Assembly (NCBI GenBank): GCA_000320605.2
Contig: KB445796.1
Location: 1,283,124-1,347,123 of the forward strand
Reading direction: 5' to 3'
Origin: Gelatoporia subvermispora B
Taxonomy: Eukaryota; Basidiomycota; Agaricomycetes; Polyporales; Gelatoporiaceae
Length of the DNA: 64,000 nt
Shown here: positions 36,960 to 48,064 of the stretch, in pieces
How the letters are laid out: each line of letters starts with the position of its first letter
Numbering within the stretch: position 1 is the first letter of the stretch
Notes under the pieces: model-generated
Told to the model about the DNA's origin: nothing
The model's input: the letters and a program-made list of their open reading frames with translations, nothing else
The model's database searches: none
Made by a program: the position numbers and the translations under genes

Positions 36960-36967
36960 CTCCTGGT

Positions 36968-37015
36968 GGGGAGTCGAACCCCGACTGACACACCAAGGAC
37001 GGGGTTCGACTCCCC
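36968..37015. repeat. Inverted pair of tRNA T-arm-like sequences
   Basis: ggggagtcgaacccc at 36968-36982 is followed by its exact reverse complement at 37001-37015. Each arm equals the T stem and loop of a tRNA (GGGG-TTCGACT-CCCC). No acceptor or anticodon arms surround them, so neither is a complete tRNA gene. Confidence 0.85.
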
Positions 37016-37301
37016 TTCGAGCAAGAACGTATGTCCGTGTTTGTTCTCGTCATTCGCGGATCCCAGTTCACTAACTTCGGTTGCTCATGAATCGTGCTGC
37101 TACATTGCAATGACCAACATCTTTCCTGAGATGACGGAAGGACCCTCACCAGAATCGACCTCTGAGATCGATCCTCTCCATGCGACGAGTGGAGAAAACT
37201 TCAGCTGCGCCACAAAATCATAACACTAGGTTAGCGGGAGGTCCAGCCCCGGGTTCAGTGTACACCAAATAATGGCCTCAGGGATCACAAAACTCTCTGG
37301 T

Positions 37302-37375
37302 GGGGAGTCTAACCCCGCTTTCCGCGTCAAAAACGCGGTTCGACTCCCCGCCAGGGGAGGAGAACCGCGTTTTTG
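37302..37375. repeat. tRNA-Asp 3' fragment with inverted T-arm and 13-bp inverted repeat
   Basis: 37302-37327 (minus strand) repeats the variable loop and T arm of the tRNA-Asp at 48 kb. An imperfect inverted copy follows at 37336-37355. A 13-bp inverted repeat has arms at 37328-37340 and 37363-37375. Confidence 0.75.
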
Positions 37376-37377
37376 TA

Positions 37378-37540
37378 CCATTTTCCGCGGAGCGGGTGCG
37401 GGTGTGGGACCATCTACCGCGGAGCGGCGCAGGGGCCGTGCCATATTCCGCGAAGCGGGTGGGGTGGGGGTCCGTCTACCGCGGAGCGGCGCAGGGGTCG
37501 TGCCATTTTCCGCGAAGCGGGCGGGCGTGCACGTCGGCGC
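37378..37540 (+). repeat. About 62-bp GC-rich tandem repeat (left end)
   Basis: Two and a half imperfect units of about 62 bp are present, each with ccgcg(g/a)agcggg and ctaccgcggagcggcgcagg. The 37-bp part at 37461-37497 recurs at 47677-47713. Confidence 0.85.
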
Positions 37541-37706
37541 CTATAAGCACTTTCCTAATCTGCCAGTTCAAACCTCCTCCCCGCCACAATCCCACCTTCC
37601 TAATCCGGCAGTCCTTCCCGACTCCCCGCCGCTCGTAACTTTATACTTACGCTGCCCATCCACCCGGGACTCTCCGCAGATTCTCCGCCAGATACTCCCG
37701 CTGCAA

Positions 37707-37714
37707 TATATAAG
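37707..37714 (+). promoter_or_regulatory. TATA box of leucine-rich gene 1
   Basis: tatataag lies 38 bp upstream of the ATG at 37745. The same spacing is seen at the next gene. Confidence 0.6.
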
Positions 37715-37744
37715 ACCTCTGTTCATGTCTTTAATGACCCCATC

Positions 37745-38464
37745 ATGTCTTACCCGAAATACATCGAGATCGGCGTCTCGCGCGACCGCCTCTACGTTTT
37801 CTGCTCCAAGCACAATGGGCTCTCTACGTGCAACTACGAATCGCTCCAGCGCCCTCACGAGCCCTCTAAAATCGTTGCGCACGTCCTCGAAATTATAGAT
37901 GGCTCCGCTCTCGAAGCTCTCGTCCTCCGCAAGATCCACGTAGCATTCACCCTCGAGCTCGCGTTCTCTCCATGGGCCGAACTCACCCATCTCGACCTTT
38001 CTGGCTGCACAGGAGTCTCCTGGTGGTATACTGCACTCGCTACGCCAGCATTCCCCGTTCTACAACGCCTCACGCTCACTGGTGCCGACGTGGCCGTCAC
38101 CCAGCTCGCCAGTGCCCTTTACACCCGCGGGCGCTCCGCCAGCTGCCTCACGCTCGCCCAGCTCGACATTGACCTCCTTCCGGGCGCCATCACATACAAT
38201 CAGCTCCCTTCCACCTGGTGCCGTGACGCCATCAATCCCCCACGCACCATCACGCCTTTTCTCCTCGCCTGGCTCCGCATTCACCTTTCCGTCGGTCTCG
38301 TGCTTTTCCCCGACGAGCCCTACTCCGATTGCAACACTGATAGCCAACCAGTCGACCATGTCGCCGCCTTCAGCTCCGACGGCAGCTCGCTCGCCACTGT
38401 CCCGACCACACTCGCTCGCAAGAACCGCCGAGCGCACGTCCCTGTTGCAGTCACCCGCATATAG
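37745..38464 (+). CDS. Leucine-rich hypothetical protein 1 (intronless)
   Basis: This is a single-exon frame of 239 codons, unusual in this intron-dense genome. The sequence has leucine-rich spacing (WAELTHLDLSGCTGVSWWY and FPVLQRLTLTGADVAVTQLA) like the solenoid that follows F-boxes in Agaricomycete proteins. No F-box is visible at the N terminus. The next gene has the same layout (a hydrophobic line, a Trp-Tyr pair, then FPxLxxLT), so the two are diverged duplicates. The C terminus has a Ser/Thr-rich and basic end. It lies inside the candidate YR element, in the recombinase gene's orientation. Function is unknown; cargo of the element is the likely role. Confidence 0.68.
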   Translation: MSYPKYIEIGVSRDRLYVFCSKHNGLSTCNYESLQRPHEPSKIVAHVLEIIDGSALEALVLRKIHVAFTLELAFSPWAELTHLDLSGCTGVSWWYTALATPAFPVLQRLTLTGADVAVTQLASALYTRGRSASCLTLAQLDIDLLPGAITYNQLPSTWCRDAINPPRTITPFLLAWLRIHLSVGLVLFPDEPYSDCNTDSQPVDHVAAFSSDGSSLATVPTTLARKNRRAHVPVAVTRI

Positions 38465-38647
38465 TCACCTAGTTCCGCGTCGCACCCGCCCTTCCTAAGC
38501 CCACTGTATTAGTATACGAGCATGTACCACTAGCCCCTTTGTACGCGCATCCAATGTATTTTTGTCCGGCCTACCAGATGTAATATCCATATGCATACAT
38601 CGTCCCGACTCCCCGCCTGATCGCCGAAATTCAAGACCCCACACACA

Positions 38648-38653
38648 TATAAA
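38648..38653 (+). promoter_or_regulatory. TATA box of leucine-rich gene 2
   Basis: tataaa lies 38 bp between its last base and the ATG at 38691, so the leader is very short. Confidence 0.6.
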
Positions 38654-38690
38654 GGCCCGGTTCACTCGCTCGACGCGCAACCTGCTCAAA

Positions 38691-39533
38691 ATGCCCCCCA
38701 CTTTTGATCCTGAGCGTGTCACCTGCGAATACCGCCAAGGCCGCGTCTTGGTCCATCTCTCCGCACACGGTCCCCTGCTCGCGAGTACACTCACGCTCCC
38801 ATGCCCGGACGAGCCCTCTGACATCTCTCATGCGCTTTCGAGCCTCTTGACTCAGTTCACGCCCTCTGCAGTGCACACTCTGCACTGCTGTGACCTCTAC
38901 ATTGCTATTTCCGGGCCGCTCTTCAGCCAGCTTACCTATCGCTGGACTTATCTTCAGACACTCGAGCTCGTCGCATGTGTCGGCCTCTGGCCTTGGTACT
39001 CCCTCCTTGGCGCATCTGCTTTTCCAATGCTGCGCCAGCTCACCATCTCGGCCTGCGAAGTCGACATCTCCGACCTCGGCGCCTGCCTCTATGAACGCCA
39101 TTGTGTTTGTAAATGCGAGCGTTTGGACCTTCTCGTGCTCGACGCCCACCTCACAGGCGCCATTGACCCCCTCGACATACCGGACCTCTACCCCGCTGCC
39201 AAGTCGCGCAAAGACATCTTCTCCGTCACCGGCCTCGCTCGCGCGTGGACTCAGATCAACACGGCTGTCACCTGCCTTCGCTTTGACAACGACACGGACA
39301 GCGATACGGCCAGTTTCCCCGACGTATTTACCGAGCCCAATTCTGACACACTCGCCCTCGAGGCATACCTTCAAGAGACTCCCCTCCCTCACTCTCGGCC
39401 GCCTTCTTCGTTCGAAGAGTACGAAGACTGGATTGCGCACTGCGCACACCTACAAGAGACTCCCGTTCCTCCAGCTCGGCCGCCTTCACCGTTCGAGAAC
39501 TACGAAGAATGGCTCGCGTACTGCGCCGAGTAG
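38691..39533 (+). CDS. Leucine-rich hypothetical protein 2 with duplicated C-terminal motif
   Basis: This intronless gene encodes 280 aa; the start is the ATG 38 bp after a TATA box. It is a paralogue of the preceding gene: YLQTLELVACVGLWPWY and FPMLRQLTISACEVDISDL match the corresponding lines there. The C terminus carries a motif repeated twice, LQETPLPHSRPPSSFEEYE-DWIAHCA and LQETPVPPARPPSPFENYE-EWLAYCA, the second ending one residue from the stop. It is an acidic, Pro-containing peptide that looks like a docking tail. I do not know the family. Its place between a tandem paralogue and the recombinase gene, all on one strand, makes it probable cargo of the element. Confidence 0.7.
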   Translation: MPPTFDPERVTCEYRQGRVLVHLSAHGPLLASTLTLPCPDEPSDISHALSSLLTQFTPSAVHTLHCCDLYIAISGPLFSQLTYRWTYLQTLELVACVGLWPWYSLLGASAFPMLRQLTISACEVDISDLGACLYERHCVCKCERLDLLVLDAHLTGAIDPLDIPDLYPAAKSRKDIFSVTGLARAWTQINTAVTCLRFDNDTDSDTASFPDVFTEPNSDTLALEAYLQETPLPHSRPPSSFEEYEDWIAHCAHLQETPVPPARPPSPFENYEEWLAYCAE

Positions 39534-39757
39534 CACCCCCTTCTGTTTCTCCCTCGTTCCCATGCATCCGACCGGCTGAACTTCTCTTCCTCCGAGTCGT
39601 TTATGTTCTTACGTGTCATTTTGTACGACTGCATTCGCTTGTACCTCAGCCCGCCCGCCGGGTCCCTGTAGCTTTCCGTGCACGCTTTGTAACACAATAA
39701 GACGCGTCGTGTTTGATACCGCCTTTGCAAAGAACGTCTCGTCATGCACCGCGTAGC

Positions 39758-39930
39758 ATTTCGCCCCCGCATATCCCGGACAAAAAGTATTACTAAGCAC
39801 ATCTTCTTATTTCGCCCCCGCATTCCCCGGGCGAACAATATCACTAGGCACGTCTACTTATTTCGCCCCCGCATTTCCCGGATGTTACTAGGCACGTCTC
39901 ATTATTTCGCCCCCGCATTTCCCGGATGAA
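39758..39930 (+). repeat. Minisatellite, four units with core atttcgcccccgcat..cccgg
   Basis: The core recurs near 39759, 39819, 39861 and 39905, separated by shorter arms with aggcacgtct. The spacing is irregular (about 42-60 bp). Confidence 0.8.
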
Positions 39931-39939
39931 ATAGTATAT

Positions 39940-39973
39940 CTCCTCCTCCTCCTCCTCCTCCTCCTCCTCCTCT
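39940..39973 (+). repeat. (tcc)n microsatellite, about 10-11 units
   Basis: An uninterrupted tcc run lies about 170 bp upstream of the recombinase ATG. Confidence 0.95.
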
Positions 39974-40097
39974 CCCCCCGAACAGGCGCTAATCGGTCCT
40001 TCTTCCTTATGGCCCCGTCAAGCACGTTCTTTCATGCGAATCCCTCTAGCCACCCTCCACAATGGGCAGAACTGTACAGCTGCACAGCTCGACCGCC

Positions 40098-40104
40098 TTA
40101 TAAG
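40098..40104 (+). promoter_or_regulatory. TATA-like box of the recombinase gene
   Basis: ttataag lies 37 bp upstream of the ATG at 40142, nearly the same spacing as at the two leucine-rich genes. Confidence 0.55.
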
Positions 40105-40141
40105 TCTCTGAAAGCCACTGATTTTTTCTTCGCCCTTCGCC

Positions 40142-43100
40142 ATGTCCCCAGTGCATCTCGCGGGCAATCACTCCAGCTATCATGTAGCGGATGTCCCGCC
40201 CTCCGGTTCCAACGGCACCGCCGGCCTCGATCCGGAATACGACTACCATAACGTACAAGTCGAGCAGCAGTATCTCGATTCTGCTCCCTCATGCTCGCAA
40301 CTCAACGCTACCACCATGGCCAACGTCAATGCTCATTTCAACTATCAGAACCGACCCGCCGCGCACCTCGCCTTCGATCAGGTCCCTCATCTCCAGAACC
40401 ACTACAGCTCGGTGGCTGATCTTCCGCCGCCCGCTATCGTCTCGGGGGACGCTTTCCCTACTTCCACCTCGGGGACACAGCTCTCTCAATCCACGCCAGA
40501 TTCGGACGCTTTCCCTACTTCCACCTCGGGGACACAGCCCTCTCAATCCACGCCAGATTCGGACGCTTTCCCTACTTCCACCTCGGGGACACAGCCCTCT
40601 CAATCCACGCCAGACTCAGGCCCCGCCACCCATCCCCTCTTGTCCGTGTTCTCAGCGTCGGCTGCCGCTGCCACCTCTATCCCTGCAGCAACCACAGCCC
40701 CACAGGCAAGGTCCCGCAAGCACATTCCCACACATCTTCAAGGGGCTCATCGTGATCCATCACGCAATCCCATCTCCTTTCTTCAACTCCAACGCATCAC
40801 CTCCGATCCTTCCATGTTTGCTGGCGTTCAACAGGCCCTCGAAGCATTTTACGACTTTCAGGACTCTACCGGCTCCCTTCAGAACAAGCAGGATCTGGAG
40901 CGTATGATGATCCATTATCATCGATTGATCTACACATTGCAGCCCGATCTGCCCGAGGATCAGTATTGGAACGCTACAATCGTCGCCCGGTTCGCGCCTC
41001 AGCTCCTTCCGTGGCTGGTACGTCTATTTTTTGTGCGTTGATCCTCGCTCATACCCTTCCGCAGGTGGCCATCACCCCTGGACGCGATGGTCGTGCTCAC
41101 ATCAAGGCTGCCACCCTGAAGCACTGGCGCGCGTACTTTGTACATCTCATCGTCGACTACACTTACAATGATCAAGGCCAACGATGCGGCATGTCGCTAC
41201 TCACTACGGGCGGCCTCTTTGAGTGTTTGCGGGACCAGGTGCCCAAGCGTGAGTCTTTCGCCTCATGTTCATCACGCATTTTCATTGTATACTTCGCAGT
41301 CATCCGCCATCACCGCCTCGACCGCCATAAGAATCCCAAGCTATACTTTGGTCTGCACGAACTCCGTCTTGTCATCCAGGCCGCCCTTTACAAATCGCAG
41401 GACGCCTCATTAGGAACTCGCGAGCACATGATCCAATTTTGCGCGCAAATCAGTCTCATTTATTTCACCGCTCTTCGCAGCTCAAGCCTTACTCCAACCG
41501 ATCCCAGAAGCCGGGACGCTGGCAACGTGCGTACATACCACGCAGTTCATTCACCACGTCGCTCACCCCCATTCAATAGTACCAGACAGTTGCAGACTTC
41601 ACTATATTCAAGAACCCCGTCGAACATGGCCTCGAAACATGGATGCAAGTCAAAACCAGCCTCTTCAAGGTAACCATACTTCTACCCTCTCACCTCAGCT
41701 CATCTTCTTACCACCCCGACAGAACAACTTCGAGACCACCGGACAAACACGCAAATACATTCTCTCCGCCGTCAAGAACATTGTCAATGTTATCTACGAA
41801 CCACAGAACTATTGCATTGCCAGCCTCCTCTTGCGCGGCTGCTTCGTCTACGAGGTGTGCTCACCTTTCAACGTCATTGAACCCGTATATTATCCACTCA
41901 TCTCATCGCTAGACACTTGACAAGCTCTTTCACACCCAAGATTTTCAGCTACGTGTCCGTCCGGAAAAGCTCTCCCTTCCGATGTACGTCCCAGCCTCTA
42001 CTTCCTGCCCCAGTTTGACCTGACCACCCCACAGGTGGCGAGCCTCTGTTCCCGGTGGCAAGGGTCTTACGGAGCAACCTGCTCTCTCCAATACTATATC
42101 CGCCACCCTGCGCACCGTCTCAGAGGACGCCGGCCTTCCGCCGGGAGGTGCCTACGCGTTCAGACGTACCGCCGCTAACACAGTATGTGTCATTTCCTCA
42201 TGCCCTCATGCCCTCACACGAAGCACCGCACAGGCCGAGACCAAATGCGGCGCCGAGTTGGCATCCCTAATCTTGGGTCACAGGACCAACTCGCAACGCG
42301 TACTGGACAACTATTCCAAGGGTACCGAGAACATACCCCTAGTGGATCTTCTCACCGGCGAACTCAAGGATTTGCCAGATGTTGTTCGCACGGTAAAGGC
42401 CTCTAACATACTTGCAATCGCACACACATTGAACCGAGGCATCTCCCAGGGCAACAGGCGCCACCAAGCTCTCGCCTCTGCTGCAGCTGAAGCCATCATC
42501 CGTGCTGCGCAGACACTCAGCCTTGACGAGACCACTCAAGAGCCATCCCAGAATGCGCCTGCAAAACGCAAGAAGACAGCCGCGCCACGCCTGCCTGATG
42601 ACCTGCGCACCAAGGCTCTAGATGTACGTTCGCATTCAGTCCTTCCATCCCATTCGCGTTCAATACATCGCTACAGGACTCCATCGGCTATAAGGCAGCA
42701 TACCGCACTAACCTGGCCGCCTGGGATGATCTCAAGAAATGCTTCACCTCAGAATCTCTCCAGTTGAACCTCAGATGCCTTCACAATCAGATCGTCCACT
42801 GGAAAAAGCTCGATCTCCTACCTCACATCTCGCAGGACTATATGCTACAGGTATCCGCTATAATCGCCATCACCCGTGTATCTCCACCTCACGAGTCACG
42901 CTCCCTCACTAGAAATGCGATGCCGTAGATCAATCCTACGTTGCGCTCAACAAGCTTCGTGGGCAGGTTGTCAGAACGGCCACTAACAAATGGCGTCGCG
43001 AATGCGGCCAACAACTCAAGGATGCTGTCACCGGTCACAAGGGCGCTGTTCTCGCAGGTACTGCTCAGGAACGCGTAGACGCAATCGCCACTCTTGATTC

Positions 43101-44851
43101 CACACCGACCATCTTGAGCGACGTCTATCAGCAACACAAGCAGCCCGCTACGTCGGCATCTCAAACCGCAGACGACTCTACAGTTTGCAACCTCGATTTT
43201 GCCAACCGGTGTCCCACCCTTGCTCTCAATGAGAATGGTCAGCCGCCTCTCGCATGCCTTCTCATCGTCTCAACTCATCTTCATCTACAGCCTGCACGGC
43301 ACGGGCCTTCGCTCGCACCCAATCGCTACCCATACCACCCACCTGCGCCTTTGATCCATCGAATCCAGAATGGGGCGCGTATACGCACACAATTCACACT
43401 CTCGCGCAACAGAGCAACTGGACGTGCGAGCTGGCAGACACGCCGCCGCCTTCCGACGCCAAGGTCGATCACGCTGTTCGCCTTCTAAGCAAGCACACGC
43501 CCATTCCACAAGCTCATACCATCCCTCACCTCCAACTTGGCAATGACCCCACTACCGACATCTCCACATCCGCACAAGATGATACCGAAGATACTGCATC
43601 GGTGTCCACTTTCATTCAACACGAAGATGCGCCCGACTTCTCACCCAGCATGTCGGAATCACCCGAGCTCGTGTCGCATGTCCTCGGTGAACGTCCAGAT
43701 CAGTCACAACGTCCACTTATTGACTTGATGGACGGCGTCTCCCTCGCTGAGTTGCGTCAAGCCTACATTCTCTTTCTTGTTCAGCCGGTGCTCCAAAAGC
43801 GGCAGCTTGATGCACTACTCACGGTCTGTTCACCGTCCATCGTCGAACTGCATACTCTTATTTGTTCGCCACGTGCTAGCCTGTCAATGATCAGTACATC
43901 TGTTACCAATGCTCCCGGCTCCAGGCCTGCGACTGTCCACGCATCCAGAATGTGCACTTCGCCACGCGGCCCAACCTGCTGCGCCACCTGTGAGTCACTC
44001 GTCATTACTCGCTACACAGTGCAAACACCGCTCTTGACAGGAAGACTGTCCACACACCATGGTTCGAGCTCATGCCACACATGACGACAACGTATCACCA
44101 AGACCAGCTCTACCGCTGCCCGAGTCCATATTGCCTCTTCACGTGAGCTTTAACGTCACCCGCTCCTCGTCTACCTCGCTCAAACCCCTCTCCACAGCGG
44201 TTCCTCCATCGACGCCGTGTATAACCACTGCATATCACCCCAATGTCCAGACTCCACTGTCCACATGCAGCTCAAATATGAGCACGACAACCGCGAAAAG
44301 ACGTATCATGGCCGCGTCGATGGGTCCCAGTCTCTCAAGCGCAACCGCAAGGACATGCTCTATTACAATCTCGATGCAGACGACTGCAAGGACTCGCACA
44401 GCGACCGCGACGACGAACCAGGTCAGATACTCGTCACTCTTTGACCTATACGCTCACTGTTTCGTACAGCTGCGACCGGCTCCATAGCCAGCACATCGGC
44501 CGCAGTCATCTGTCCTCTCGTCGTGCAGGACACTCCCGGCGCATCTTCCTCGCAACAGCCTGCCACCCCTCGTGTTGACGCGCATGTCCCTCACACCAAC
44601 AATCCGCGTGTTCAACGATTTCTCGACATCTATGCTGACATGTTGACCCATGAGCCTCACATCATGTCACACCCTGAGTTGACCGTACGTATCCCTCATG
44701 ATCATATTTGATACCTTCTCACGACTCCCAAATACCGCAGGATGCACCCCCACGGGCTCGCAATGCGCTCTCTCGCTCCTTCGACTTTCTCCGCACCTAT
44801 ATGTTGCCCATGGCAGAACAGCAGGCACAAGATGAAGATTCCGATGGATAG
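40142..44851 (+). CDS. Tyrosine recombinase with zinc-finger-like C terminus (crypton/captain-like)
   Basis: Hand splicing gives about 16 exons and roughly 1,300 aa. The N terminus is Ser/Thr/Gln-rich with three 20-residue repeats. The catalytic core follows: FTALRSSSL near residue 415 (first Arg), AYAFRRTAAN near 570 (the H/Y-x-x-R box, split from the next exon by an intron), LILGHR near 592 (His), and VLDNYSKG near 604 (candidate nucleophile Tyr). This order and spacing match the tyrosine-recombinase fold used by cryptons and by the DUF3435 'captains' of fungal Starship elements. The C-terminal part has YICYQCSRLQACDCP with a following NLLRHLEDCPH, a Cys/His zinc-finger-like motif; as I recall, DUF3435 proteins also carry a C-terminal finger. 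All joins traced are open and no stop interrupts. Family level (crypton or captain) is not settled by reading alone. Role inferred: mobilising the 37.3-48.0 kb element. Confidence 0.72.
40450..40620 (+). repeat. Three 60-bp coding tandem repeats
   Basis: Three near-identical 60-bp units encode DAFPTSTSGTQ(L/P)SQSTPDS within the recombinase N-terminal region. The first unit differs by a Leu for Pro. Confidence 0.95.
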
Positions 44852-45119
44852 GCCACGCCTACAATCGATCACTTCGTGTCATTCATCTCTATTGTATCGT
44901 CGCACGTTGCTAACCCTGTCATACAATGTCCTAGTTCACTTTGCATTCTTTAATTTCCCTTGTACAGTACCGCGTTTACAGAGCTGCAATACATACTTCA
45001 CAATGTCCGAGTCGCAATGTCCCAAGTTCACATGTGCCAAGTCCGATGATGCGCTCGCGTTCAATCGCGATATGTCACTCGTTTTCCATTCAGTCTTTTT
45101 CGCAACACTCCCTCGCTCG

Positions 45120-46285
45120 TCAGTTGCTCCAGATATCTGCGCCGCTCCCAGCCAGTGCGCCGGCAGCGTCAAAGCCATCATCATCTACGCACGCCATTAT
45201 TTTTAGCCATATCTCATCCTCTACACCAGCCTTGCACTCACCGTCCTCCCAGCTGCTGAACAAACCCAGCATGGTCGTCTGACGCTCCGGCTTCTTCGCT
45301 GATTCCAAATGCTCTTCTCCATTTCCTGAACCACCGCCGTCGTTGGCCGACACGCTTCCGTTGTTCACGATCTCCATCCACTTCAAAGTGGCCTTTTTCC
45401 CAGCTGCACTCGTCGTGACGGTATAGGACTCGACCGCGGCATCCGGTACCGCCGTGGTTCGACCTTGATCCATGATGTCCTTCGGTGCAGACATCGCGCT
45501 TCCGGCACCAGATATCACAGCATCAGCAGAGTGCGCACTGTCGCTCGAAACCGCAGATGAAGCATTCACACCGCCGTAAGGTGCAATAGCCGAGGTTTGT
45601 AGAGACTTTCCAGACGCGACAGCCGAAGCGTGCATAGAGCCGTCAGATCGGAGCGCCGAATGCATAGAGGCATAGGATCCGAATGCCGAAGTCTGCAGAG
45701 AGCCGTATGATCCGCCATCCGAAGTACCAACAGCATCGCAGAGTCCACCAGTGACATCCTGGTCGTAGTGGAAAGTCATACTAGCCGGAGTTCCTCTAAT
45801 CCCATCCCCCGCAGTGATCGTGTTACCCAGATAGTCGAAAGTCGGAGCAGCAGCCTCTCCCATGCAGCCGATATCCATAGCGCACGTCAGAATAGAGTCG
45901 GCGGTCGGGGAATGAATGCGATCCGTCAGAAACATCTGACTAGGACTGCAGTGCAAAGTCGTCCCGCTCAGGCTCCCGCTCATCGACGAGCCGGAGTTCG
46001 TGAGCGACCCGCACGATCCGCTTTCAAGCAGAGGGTCGTAGAGTCCCTTGGTGTTCTCCCGAGCGCGGGCCAGTTCTAGCAGCTTCTCTGCGTACTGTAG
46101 GTCTAATTTGCGCAGTTCTTGGGCTTCTTTGTCAGCGTTCCTTTTGGCTTTCCTATCAAGTAGTTAGCATATAGTCATCGTGCTGCATGCTAACGTGCTT
46201 ACAGCGTGTCGATCTCCAGCTTCGCCATGCGTTCCGAAAAGTCAAACATGTCCTTTATCACTCGGTCGACCGTTTTTGGGTGCAT
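45120..46285 (-). CDS. Ser/Ala/Gly-rich hypothetical protein
   Basis: Two exons, 46285-46203 and 46152-45120, join through a GTAAGC...GATAG intron to give 371 aa. The N-terminal 70 residues look like a coiled coil: RVIKDMFDFSERMAKLEID, then a charged helix with EAQELRKLDLQYAEKLLELA. The rest is low-complexity with degenerate 13-15-residue repeats (GSLQTSAFGSYASMHSA, GSMHASA, KSLQTSA). Acidic sequence lies near the C terminus. It reads opposite to the recombinase gene and ends 269 bp from its stop. I do not recognise the family. The coiled coil could mediate dimer formation; within the element it counts as cargo or an accessory protein. Confidence 0.6.
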
Positions 46286-46702
46286 TCTACATCGTGAACG
46301 TCGTCCAGGCCCCAAGAATCGGCTGTATGCGTGTACTACACCTACTTTCTCGGTTTGTTGCTCGCGTTGCCCTCCAATGCCTCCCCAGCGCGTTTCCCGG
46401 ATGCACCTATTGCGTCGCTCAGAATTGGGTATCACACCAACTGGCACCCTATATACGCACCCTTGGAAGGCATAGTACCGTACCAAGCAATGAGGTAGTG
46501 ACAACAAGATGAGATGCGAATGCCACAAGTCCAAGATGTCCGCACGGCATCCGGGCCGTACACGCTCACATCCACACTTAGACGCCCACGGACCGTTCCG
46601 ACCGAGGATCCTATGCAGTTTGCACCATGTCGCTCCTCGTATTAGTCCTTCTCCTTTCACTTGTTTCACGCTACGTCTCCCGCTCATCATACAGCTTTTT
46701 TC

Positions 46703-47397
46703 ATGTCTCTTCACATTATTCTCCATCATCTGAACACTATTCAGGAGCTCCTCGACGAACGACGCTCCATCCTTCCATCTCTTCGCACAGAGCGGCTCCG
46801 TCAGGACATTCGTCAAAAATTAGACATTGTTTACTCTCAGGCAGAGCTCTACTTTCCGCACGAGCCACGTTCTCCTTCGCCGGAGGATTATATACCACAC
46901 GAATTGCATGACGAGCCCATTCATGACCAGTCACAGTATCCTGGATCATCGCCTGCAGGCATTCTTACCAGTCCCATCGCTATTGCTCACCACTCTAGCC
47001 CATGCAGCTTGAACTCCCTTCGTACCAGATCTCCGTCGTCCCCCTCGCACTCACTTGCGTCACCTAGACTACAGTCTCCCGCACGACACACCACACCATC
47101 CTCCTCACCCAGCTCACGCGCCGATCCTCAAGCTCGCCGCCAAAAGGTGCGTATATGCGCATGCATATTTGCGCCTCACCTACGTCACTTTCTTTACAGC
47201 TCGCAGAGGCCCTCGCGAGTCGAGCAGCAGAGCGCGGTGGCTTTGTTATGGCATCTGTTGGCCAAGATCCTATTACCGCCGCCGAATGCGTCCACGTTCT
47301 GTTCCCCCCAGCCAGCAAGGACACTCGCACACACATCGTCAAGGAGGACGAAGCACTTCGCCGCCTAGTTCGCCCATACGCCTCAATCTCTCTTTAA
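46703..47397 (+). CDS. Hypothetical protein with N-terminal coiled coil and Ser/Pro-rich middle
   Basis: Exons 46703-47146 and 47200-47397 give 213 aa in frame. The start MSLHIILHHLNTIQELLDER is followed by a helical, Arg/Glu-rich stretch (RTERLRQDIRQKLDIVYSQ). A Ser/Pro/His-rich middle and a short C-terminal domain beginning LAEALASRAAERGGFVMASV complete it. The intron is GTGCGT...TTACAG. No family is recognised. It is the last complete gene before the right-hand repeat of the candidate element. A further open block follows at about 47450-47670 (PHMEEPPQVFHSACDRSHQY onward); its frame runs into the right repeat, so the next gene is cut off there. Confidence 0.6.
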
Positions 47398-47676
47398 CAA
47401 TGGGTGAGTTGTGTCTCACATTTCACCATCCCACTCACGTTCGTCGTAGCAGGAGCACCTCAGCCCCCACATGGAGGAACCTCCGCAAGTCTTTCACTCT
47501 GCATGCGATCGCTCTCATCAATATGACCTCATTCCGGAGGTTCAGACCCGCATTCAATCCAGACATGAAGTGAGTACACCCATACAAGCCAGTCCCTAAT
47601 TGCTTCTCTTCCACCTTGGTCCAGGCCCTTCAACAATCCCATTCGCTCCATGCCAATGTCGTCCTCGATGTAATTT

Positions 47677-47713
47677 GGGGTGGGGGTCCATCTACCGCGG
47701 AGCGGCGCAGGGG
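47677..47713 (+). repeat. Right copy of the 37-bp direct repeat
   Basis: It matches 37461-37497 at 36 of 37 positions (a for g at the 14th base) in the same orientation. Only one unit is present here, against 2.5 at the left end. Confidence 0.92.
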
Positions 47714-47962
47714 CCATAGTCAAGGGCCAAATAGACATTCTTTGCCTGTGAACGAAGGAAGAGCTTATCAATGCGATCGATCAGGTCGATTGACACTTGG
47801 ACAGAATATGTCAAAGTTTGCTACTGACTTCTTCGATCATTCTTCGGAACTCATCACCTATGCAACATCGCAAATCTTCCGGCCGTTGTCCTCTGGTTTT
47901 CGCTCGTTCTGCAACATAGTTTCAACTGGTATCAAGTACTTACTGAAGTGGTCAAAAATACT

Positions 47963-48064
47963 CTCTCTGTCGGGGAGTCGAACCCCGCTTTCGCGCGCAC
48001 GTAAGCAGCCAATAGGAGACCGTCCAGTGACAGGCGCGTGTACTAACCGATATACTAACAGAGA
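47963..48064 (-). tRNA. tRNA-Asp (GTC) with intron
   Basis: On the minus strand the acceptor TCTCTGT pairs with ACAGAGA. The D arm contains GTATATCGGTTAGTAC. The anticodon stem CGCGC pairs with GCGCG, with loop CTGTCA and anticodon GTC. An intron of about 30 nt follows the anticodon. The T arm is CGGGG-TTCGACT-CCCCG. All arms close, so this looks like a functional gene at the right edge of the candidate element. Confidence 0.88.

Follow-up and report, generated by a model that had tools for sequence, protein, structure and literature searches.

A probable DUF3435-type tyrosine recombinase element in a tRNA-Asp gene of the basidiomycete Gelatoporia subvermispora

Can a tyrosine recombinase insert DNA into a nuclear tRNA gene of a fungus? 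Insertion of tyrosine-recombinase elements into tRNA genes is typical of the mobile DNA of bacteria and archaea, and the question is raised here by a stretch of 64,000 nucleotides of Gelatoporia (Ceriporiopsis) subvermispora B (G000:C6:1283124-1347123, hereafter the window, within a 37.7-Mb assembly of 52 contigs). In this window, a displaced 3' fragment of a tRNA-Asp gene and an intact tRNA-Asp(GTC) gene lie 10.67 kb apart, with a recombinase gene between them. Based on comparisons made within this one genome, the interval is probably a mobile element of about 10.6 kb, located in the tRNA-Asp(GTC) gene and encoding a DUF3435-type tyrosine recombinase and four further genes. Sequence of this element recurs beside tRNA-Asp genes on other contigs, where an intact tRNA-Asp is kept, and four of the six tRNA-Asp loci also bear outwardly displaced tRNA-Asp 3' fragments. 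A tyrosine-recombinase element tied to tRNA-Asp in a basidiomycete had been proposed in a sequence-only reading of the window, and both the DUF3435 match and the related sequence at other tRNA-Asp genes bear this proposal out. The tRNA-Asp loci are named below by their contigs, C6, C8, C12, C16, C19 and C28, with the studied interval on C6.

What kind of recombinase does the interval encode? The gene consists of 16 GT-AG exons with an open frame of 1303 codons and is identical to the deposited CERSUDRAFT_94626. Residues which we take to be those of the tyrosine-recombinase motif occur in order in the protein, namely R413, K454 or K459, R570/R571, H592 and Y603. We compared the protein with Pfam, in which DUF3435 (PF11917) is the family of the Starship captains and has a curated cut-off of 25.8 bits. 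Seven of 12 fragments of the catalytic region scored above this cut-off (1/1, 1/3 and 5/8 in the three batches), with 30.7-32.7 bits and E-values of 5e-8 to 2e-7, whereas none of five shuffled fragments and not the one reversed fragment did so. The profile comparison, which the sequence-only reading had suggested, thus shows that the predicted catalytic region belongs to DUF3435. No Crypton-related Pfam family was matched by the recombinase forms and fragments scanned. The zinc-finger-like C terminus attributed to the protein in the same reading is only motif-like (10.2 bits vs a Pfam cut-off of 27). Searches of a set of 5.8 billion proteins, which reach relatives with exact shared 5-residue words, gave only the recombinase itself among the matches listed. 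NCBIfam and PDB sequence searches with the recombinase returned nothing, a PHROGs search returned one family of unknown function (E 0.034), and no relative was present in the viral contigs searched. The genome was also searched with PF11917, which found nothing there or in control genomes and missed the intron-split gene at the studied locus too, and this search is therefore uninformative on further DUF3435 genes. The catalytic region itself matched the genome at C6 and C19 only. In addition, the first exon contains a 57-bp tandem repeat in three copies (window 40447-40617).

How is the interval bounded? The intact tRNA-Asp(GTC) gene on the right was found by ARAGORN in intron mode and missed without intron mode. 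Rfam at the gathering threshold gave no match in the window, listing neither this tRNA-Asp nor a tRNA-His(GTG) with a 22-nt intron at c[23781,23875], distant from the element. The fragment at the left junction scored 49 against a 36-nt probe, compared with a best chance score of 25 when order-1 Markov sequence (604,020 strand-bases) was scanned, and its T-loop reads TTAGACT, so that it looks like a drifting, displaced fragment. The direct arrangement of a 3' fragment on the left and an intact tRNA-Asp on the right, noticed in the sequence-only reading, was thereby confirmed. The same reading had placed a 37-bp direct repeat on both sides of the interval. This repeat indeed matches at 36 of 37 positions (37461-37497 vs 47677-47713), but we rejected the two copies as outer ends, since they belong to an end array common to C28 and C8. 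In this array, a 62-bp unit occurs twice in 37400-37523, and a sub-unit of ~30 bp occurs at 37375, 37407, 37438 and 37500, with one further at 47685. An inverted pair of 25 nt (37330-37354 and 47967-47991, 88%) is composed of T-arm sequence.

Does related sequence accompany the other tRNA-Asp genes? With the tRNA-Asp 5' half (up to 3 mismatches), six tRNA-Asp genes were found, one at each of the six loci. ARAGORN called Asp(GTC) at five of them and Tyr at C12, whose gene reads, from its sequence, as a tRNA-Asp with a changed acceptor stem. The left-end repeat (up to 3 mismatches) was found at six places, all of them tRNA-Asp loci (three at C6, two at C28 and one at C8), and the backwards control gave none. 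Element-like sequence is present at five of the six loci, namely at C6 and, beyond the studied interval, at C28, C8, C19 and C12. At C28, window 37289-40130 recurs over 2842 bp with 97.2% identity (C28:255541-258376), bordered by a displaced tRNA-Asp fragment on one side and the intact tRNA-Asp on the other, and the junction from resident tRNA to element sequence lies around GAACCCCG-CTTTC, between the T-arm and the anticodon stem. At C8, a tRNA fragment, the left-end repeat, the right-end candidate segment R and the tRNA follow in that order within ~375 bp, so that both ends are present. The layout of bacterial tRNA integration, with an intact tRNA at one end and a 3' fragment at the other in direct orientation, is therefore found at C6, C28 and C8. 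Because C6 and C8 have the same left end past the tRNA fragment and the same segment R before the intact tRNA, with unrelated outer flanks, they are most simply read as site-specific insertions. C12 holds 95 bp of the left end at 77%, and only a 3' flank in common with C19 was seen at C16.

The copy at C19 is decayed. It consists of pieces of 39401-41753 with 82-88% identity, its recombinase part contains stops, it was later hit by insertions, and it is truncated at 41753. Within C19:571405-588400, it is interrupted by two nested insertions whose long direct repeats (361/379 bp, 92.6%; 311 bp, 90.0%) resemble those of LTR retrotransposons, and by a third insertion of ~2.25 kb. An orphan tRNA-Asp 5' half at C19:571093-571131, which lies upstream of the intact tRNA-Asp of that locus at a distance of ~270 bp, is 94% identical over 50 bp to the C12 gene plus its 5' flank and gives the impression of a further tRNA-Asp gene broken close to the intron. 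At C16, large tandem duplications (e.g. 4.1 kb, 83.6%) are present in the 3' flank of the tRNA-Asp (C16:51225-68806).

Are the tRNA fragments themselves arranged as insertion would leave them? In 151 kb at the six loci, scanned on both strands, six displaced tRNA-Asp 3' fragments scored at least 26 (two at C6, two at C12, one at C28 and one at C8). Each of these fragments is directly oriented with respect to the intact tRNA and located 3' of it; because the scan covered ~104 kb of 3' flank and ~47 kb of 5' flank in stretches chosen from earlier matches, the orientation is the stronger half of this argument. T-arm matches in the opposite orientation numbered seven, of which six start 30-37 bp past a direct T-arm. 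Two of the six are inside tRNA introns (C8 and C16), and the seventh match, at C12, adjoins a weaker T-arm seen by eye. Among the 15 pairs of tRNA-Asp loci, the 3' flank is common in two (C8/C6, 89.8% over 226 bp; C16/C19, 93.5% over 217 bp) and the 5' flank in none. In a control with tRNA-Glu, one isotype with narrower surroundings (~500 bp), T-arms of the GGGGAATCGAACCCCG type numbered 15, of which 14 were in ARAGORN-called genes, and 3' flanks were not common to different stretches. Displaced and intact T-arms stand at 6:6 for Asp vs 1:14 for Glu (p 0.024), the counts having been made by different criteria. A tRNA-Glu-type T-arm outside the ARAGORN-called genes, at C7:1074531-1074546, is perhaps a displaced fragment of another tRNA. 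The introns of the tRNA-Asp genes at C16:49257-49358 and C8:1558283-1558385 each include a T-arm in inverted orientation, which would allow pairing of the intron with the T-arm of the gene, and these inverted T-arms are perhaps footprints of past insertions.

How might the element integrate? The recombinase would exchange strands in the tRNA gene, in the part from the T-arm to the anticodon stem. The left end, with its inverted T-arm and repeat array, would then be linked to the displaced fragment, and segment R, as the right end, to the restored 3' part of the tRNA, by analogy with tRNA-integrating bacterial elements. Some insertions may be completed by host DNA repair, yielding left-anchored, right-truncated copies such as that at C28. 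The sharing of 3' flanks without 5' flanks fits a tRNA 3' part supplied by the element, whereas the T-arm on both sides of the C28 copy does not. Tentatively, and with somewhat less confidence than we place in the element itself, we propose that the DUF3435 recombinase may act in a nuclear genome as phage integrases do, recombining within the 3' part of tRNA-Asp(GTC) and supplying a replacement for it, so that the tRNA stays intact. Of the six tRNA-Asp genes, at least five would have been marked in this way, repeatedly, and the ladders of displaced T-arms, and perhaps the inverted T-arms in introns, would be the traces.

Several observations weigh against a mobile element in the tRNA-Asp gene. 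The C28 copy ends at 40130, 11 bp upstream of the recombinase start codon, where resident flank and T-arm return, so the resident T-arm is present on both sides of the copy, and the tRNA 3' end plus flank is directly duplicated over 262 bp (96.6%). The textbook scar of tRNA integration, as which the sequence-only reading had taken the locus, does not explain this right-truncated copy. Its right side misfits one clean crossover, which suggests left junctions made by the recombinase and some right ends finished by host repair. Additional sequence lies between the repeat and segment R at C8, and segment R is also present at C19, 16 kb from the tRNA and left of the other element pieces, which fits no simple scheme. 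Beyond 41753, up to 47680, the interval is single copy in the genome, so the right boundary is drawn from C6 and C8 alone. Moreover, T-stem variants pair C8 with C19 and C6 with C16, discordant with the 3' flanks, which pair C8 with C6 and C19 with C16. As for the protein, neither the 706-aa nor the 1303-aa form gave a Pfam match, and five of the 12 fragments (341, 347 and 441 aa, and two starting at residue 390 or 400) gave no DUF3435 match, possibly because of HMMER's filters. The DUF3435 match spans residues 384-595 and stops before Y603, the position of the usual box-II His is occupied by Tyr or Ala, and a single-sequence structure model (pLDDT 35.9) was too poor for a fold search. To these points is added the scope of one genome.

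The main rival is repair without the recombinase. In this view, tRNA genes or T-arm hairpins would halt replication forks, pieces of one tRNA-Asp locus would be copied into a paralogous one by template switching or break-induced replication, and the recombinase gene would be a passenger. The C28 locus suits this explanation, since the copy begins in T-arm homology, breaks off sharply and sets in again at 225 bp from the tRNA, which gives the 262-bp duplication; moreover, the C6 and C28 blocks differ at 67 of 2803 positions and the C28 duplicates at 8 of 261, which suggests one event. The truncated C19 copy also agrees with it, and so do the T-arm hairpins that four of the six loci have either outside the tRNA or, at C8 and C16, within its intron. 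However, template switching accounts neither for a source block at C6 lying between a tRNA fragment and a tRNA and carrying a captain-family recombinase, nor for both ends being common to C6 and C8, and the tRNA-Glu control, although small, shows neither frequent displacement of T-arms nor a 3' flank common to different stretches. We consider this explanation rather unlikely, and the site-specific element remains our preferred reading.

tRNA genes are often duplicated, and tRNA-Asp genes may simply have spread with pieces of their 3' flanks, an ordinary block of genes having been caught beside one of them. The 3' flanks common to two pairs of loci would be expected from such passive duplication, but not the lack of any common 5' flank, the recurrence of displaced 3' fragments at four loci in a single orientation or the finding of the left-end array at tRNA-Asp loci only, and this explanation is improbable. 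The interval could also be a small or degraded ordinary Starship that lies beside a tRNA gene by chance. Like tRNA genes, 5S rDNA is transcribed by polymerase III. Some Starships use 5S rDNA (PMC12153272; statements on this and the other papers cited concern the parts of them that were available), and the recombinase is of the DUF3435 type. Nevertheless, the recombinase gene is not the first gene but follows two genes and ~2.8 kb of sequence, and the link to tRNA-Asp recurs at several loci, which makes an ordinary Starship the least probable of these explanations.

The features of the interval are collected in Table 1. The two intronless leucine-rich genes are paralogous, as the sequence-only reading had stated (201 aligned positions with 28% identity, E 4e-15), but neither reaches the Pfam LRR cut-off (best 15.3 bits vs 27). 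Between C6 and C28, their pN/pS ratios are 0.49 (p 0.07) and 0.31 (p 0.05), pooled 0.42 (p 0.006). Selection on these genes is only suggested, and the ratios are distorted because 60 of the 67 differences between the copies are transitions and 49 of 67 are at CpG in either copy. This bias hints at methylation-driven decay of copies, and gene 2 has lost its stop codon in the C28 copy. A separate leucine-rich element ending at 40130 was considered and rejected, since at C19 the copy runs through this point without a break and so connects the leucine-rich part with the recombinase.

Table 1 Features of the studied interval and its borders, in window coordinates
Feature	Position	Strand	Remarks
Outer displaced tRNA-Asp T-arm fragment, in T-arm hairpin ~36963-37015	36968..36983	-	probe score 32
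Displaced tRNA-Asp 3' fragment, left junction	37292..37326	-	probe score 49; 90% over 30 nt to intact tRNA
Palindrome with inverted T-arm, candidate left end of element	37328..37375		inverted repeat 91% complementary; common to C28
Left-end repeat array, ~31-bp units, 62-bp unit twice	37375..37530	+	
Leucine-rich gene 1, intronless	37745..38464	+	
Leucine-rich gene 2, intronless paralogue	38691..39533	+	
Predicted DUF3435-type tyrosine recombinase, 16 exons, 1303 aa	40142..44851	+	
Gene without Pfam family above cut-off, one intron, limits approximate	45120..46285	-	
Gene without Pfam family above cut-off, one intron, limits approximate	46703..47397	+	
Array unit, single right-hand copy	47677..47714	+	
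Segment R, right-end candidate, common to C8 beside its tRNA-Asp	47715..47962		
Intact tRNA-Asp(GTC), 30-nt intron	47963..48064	-	ARAGORN intron mode

If the preferred reading of a recombinase element in the tRNA-Asp gene is true, the captain family would also include small elements of basidiomycetes which leave the target gene unharmed, and a natural system of site-specific recombination would be available for fungi. The role of tRNA-Asp introns, which differ between the copies here, in integration would also become testable.

How does the element compare with known systems? Phages and islands of bacteria and archaea which reside in tRNA genes leave an intact tRNA at one end and a 3' fragment at the other, the gene being restored. 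The C6 element has the same layout of its ends, but it lies in a nuclear genome, encodes a DUF3435 recombinase and has a truncated copy with target duplication at C28. In the literature consulted, eukaryotic elements that target tRNA genes are retrotransposons, such as those of Dictyostelium and yeast, compact genomes in which they insert near tRNA genes (PMC5006619). tRNA targets are common to both, whereas here the tRNA gene itself yields a displaced 3' fragment. The open-licence literature, in the parts available, described no fungal case of a tyrosine-recombinase element residing in a nuclear tRNA gene. Cryptophyte Polinton-like viruses are likewise integrated eukaryotic elements with a tyrosine recombinase, for which the available text states that no tRNA genes lie within 1 kb of the insertions (PMC12220804). 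Cryptons are also DNA transposons with a tyrosine recombinase, with terminal direct repeats of 4 or 6 bp, and were first found in a basidiomycete among others (PMC3212892). The main text of that paper does not contain the word tRNA, and the recombinase described here is instead of the DUF3435 type.

Starships share with the C6 element a DUF3435 recombinase and cargo genes. Their captain is the leading 5' gene, they measure 15-700 kb and they carry direct and sometimes inverted repeats (PMC12134995), the direct repeats being 2-12 bp (PMC12134995, PMC12153272). As the C6 element has neither the leading captain nor the size, it is not filed as a Starship but rather as a DUF3435 element whose mode of action may in part be that of Starships. 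The sequence-only reading had held that a basidiomycete counterpart of Starships would be new, a view since overtaken by the report of eight Starships of 41,942-605,797 bp in the basidiomycete Tremella fuciformis (PMC13066641). These have a captain-type gene and a basidiomycete host in common with the C6 element and differ from it in size, and the available part of the report names no tRNA target for them. Of particular interest for comparison are the Osiris Starships of the Enterprise family, whose target is 5S rDNA, which they reportedly fragment (PMC12134995, PMC12153272). Like them, the putative C6 element would prefer a small non-coding RNA gene, which in the present case is tRNA-Asp, and here the target gene is left intact.

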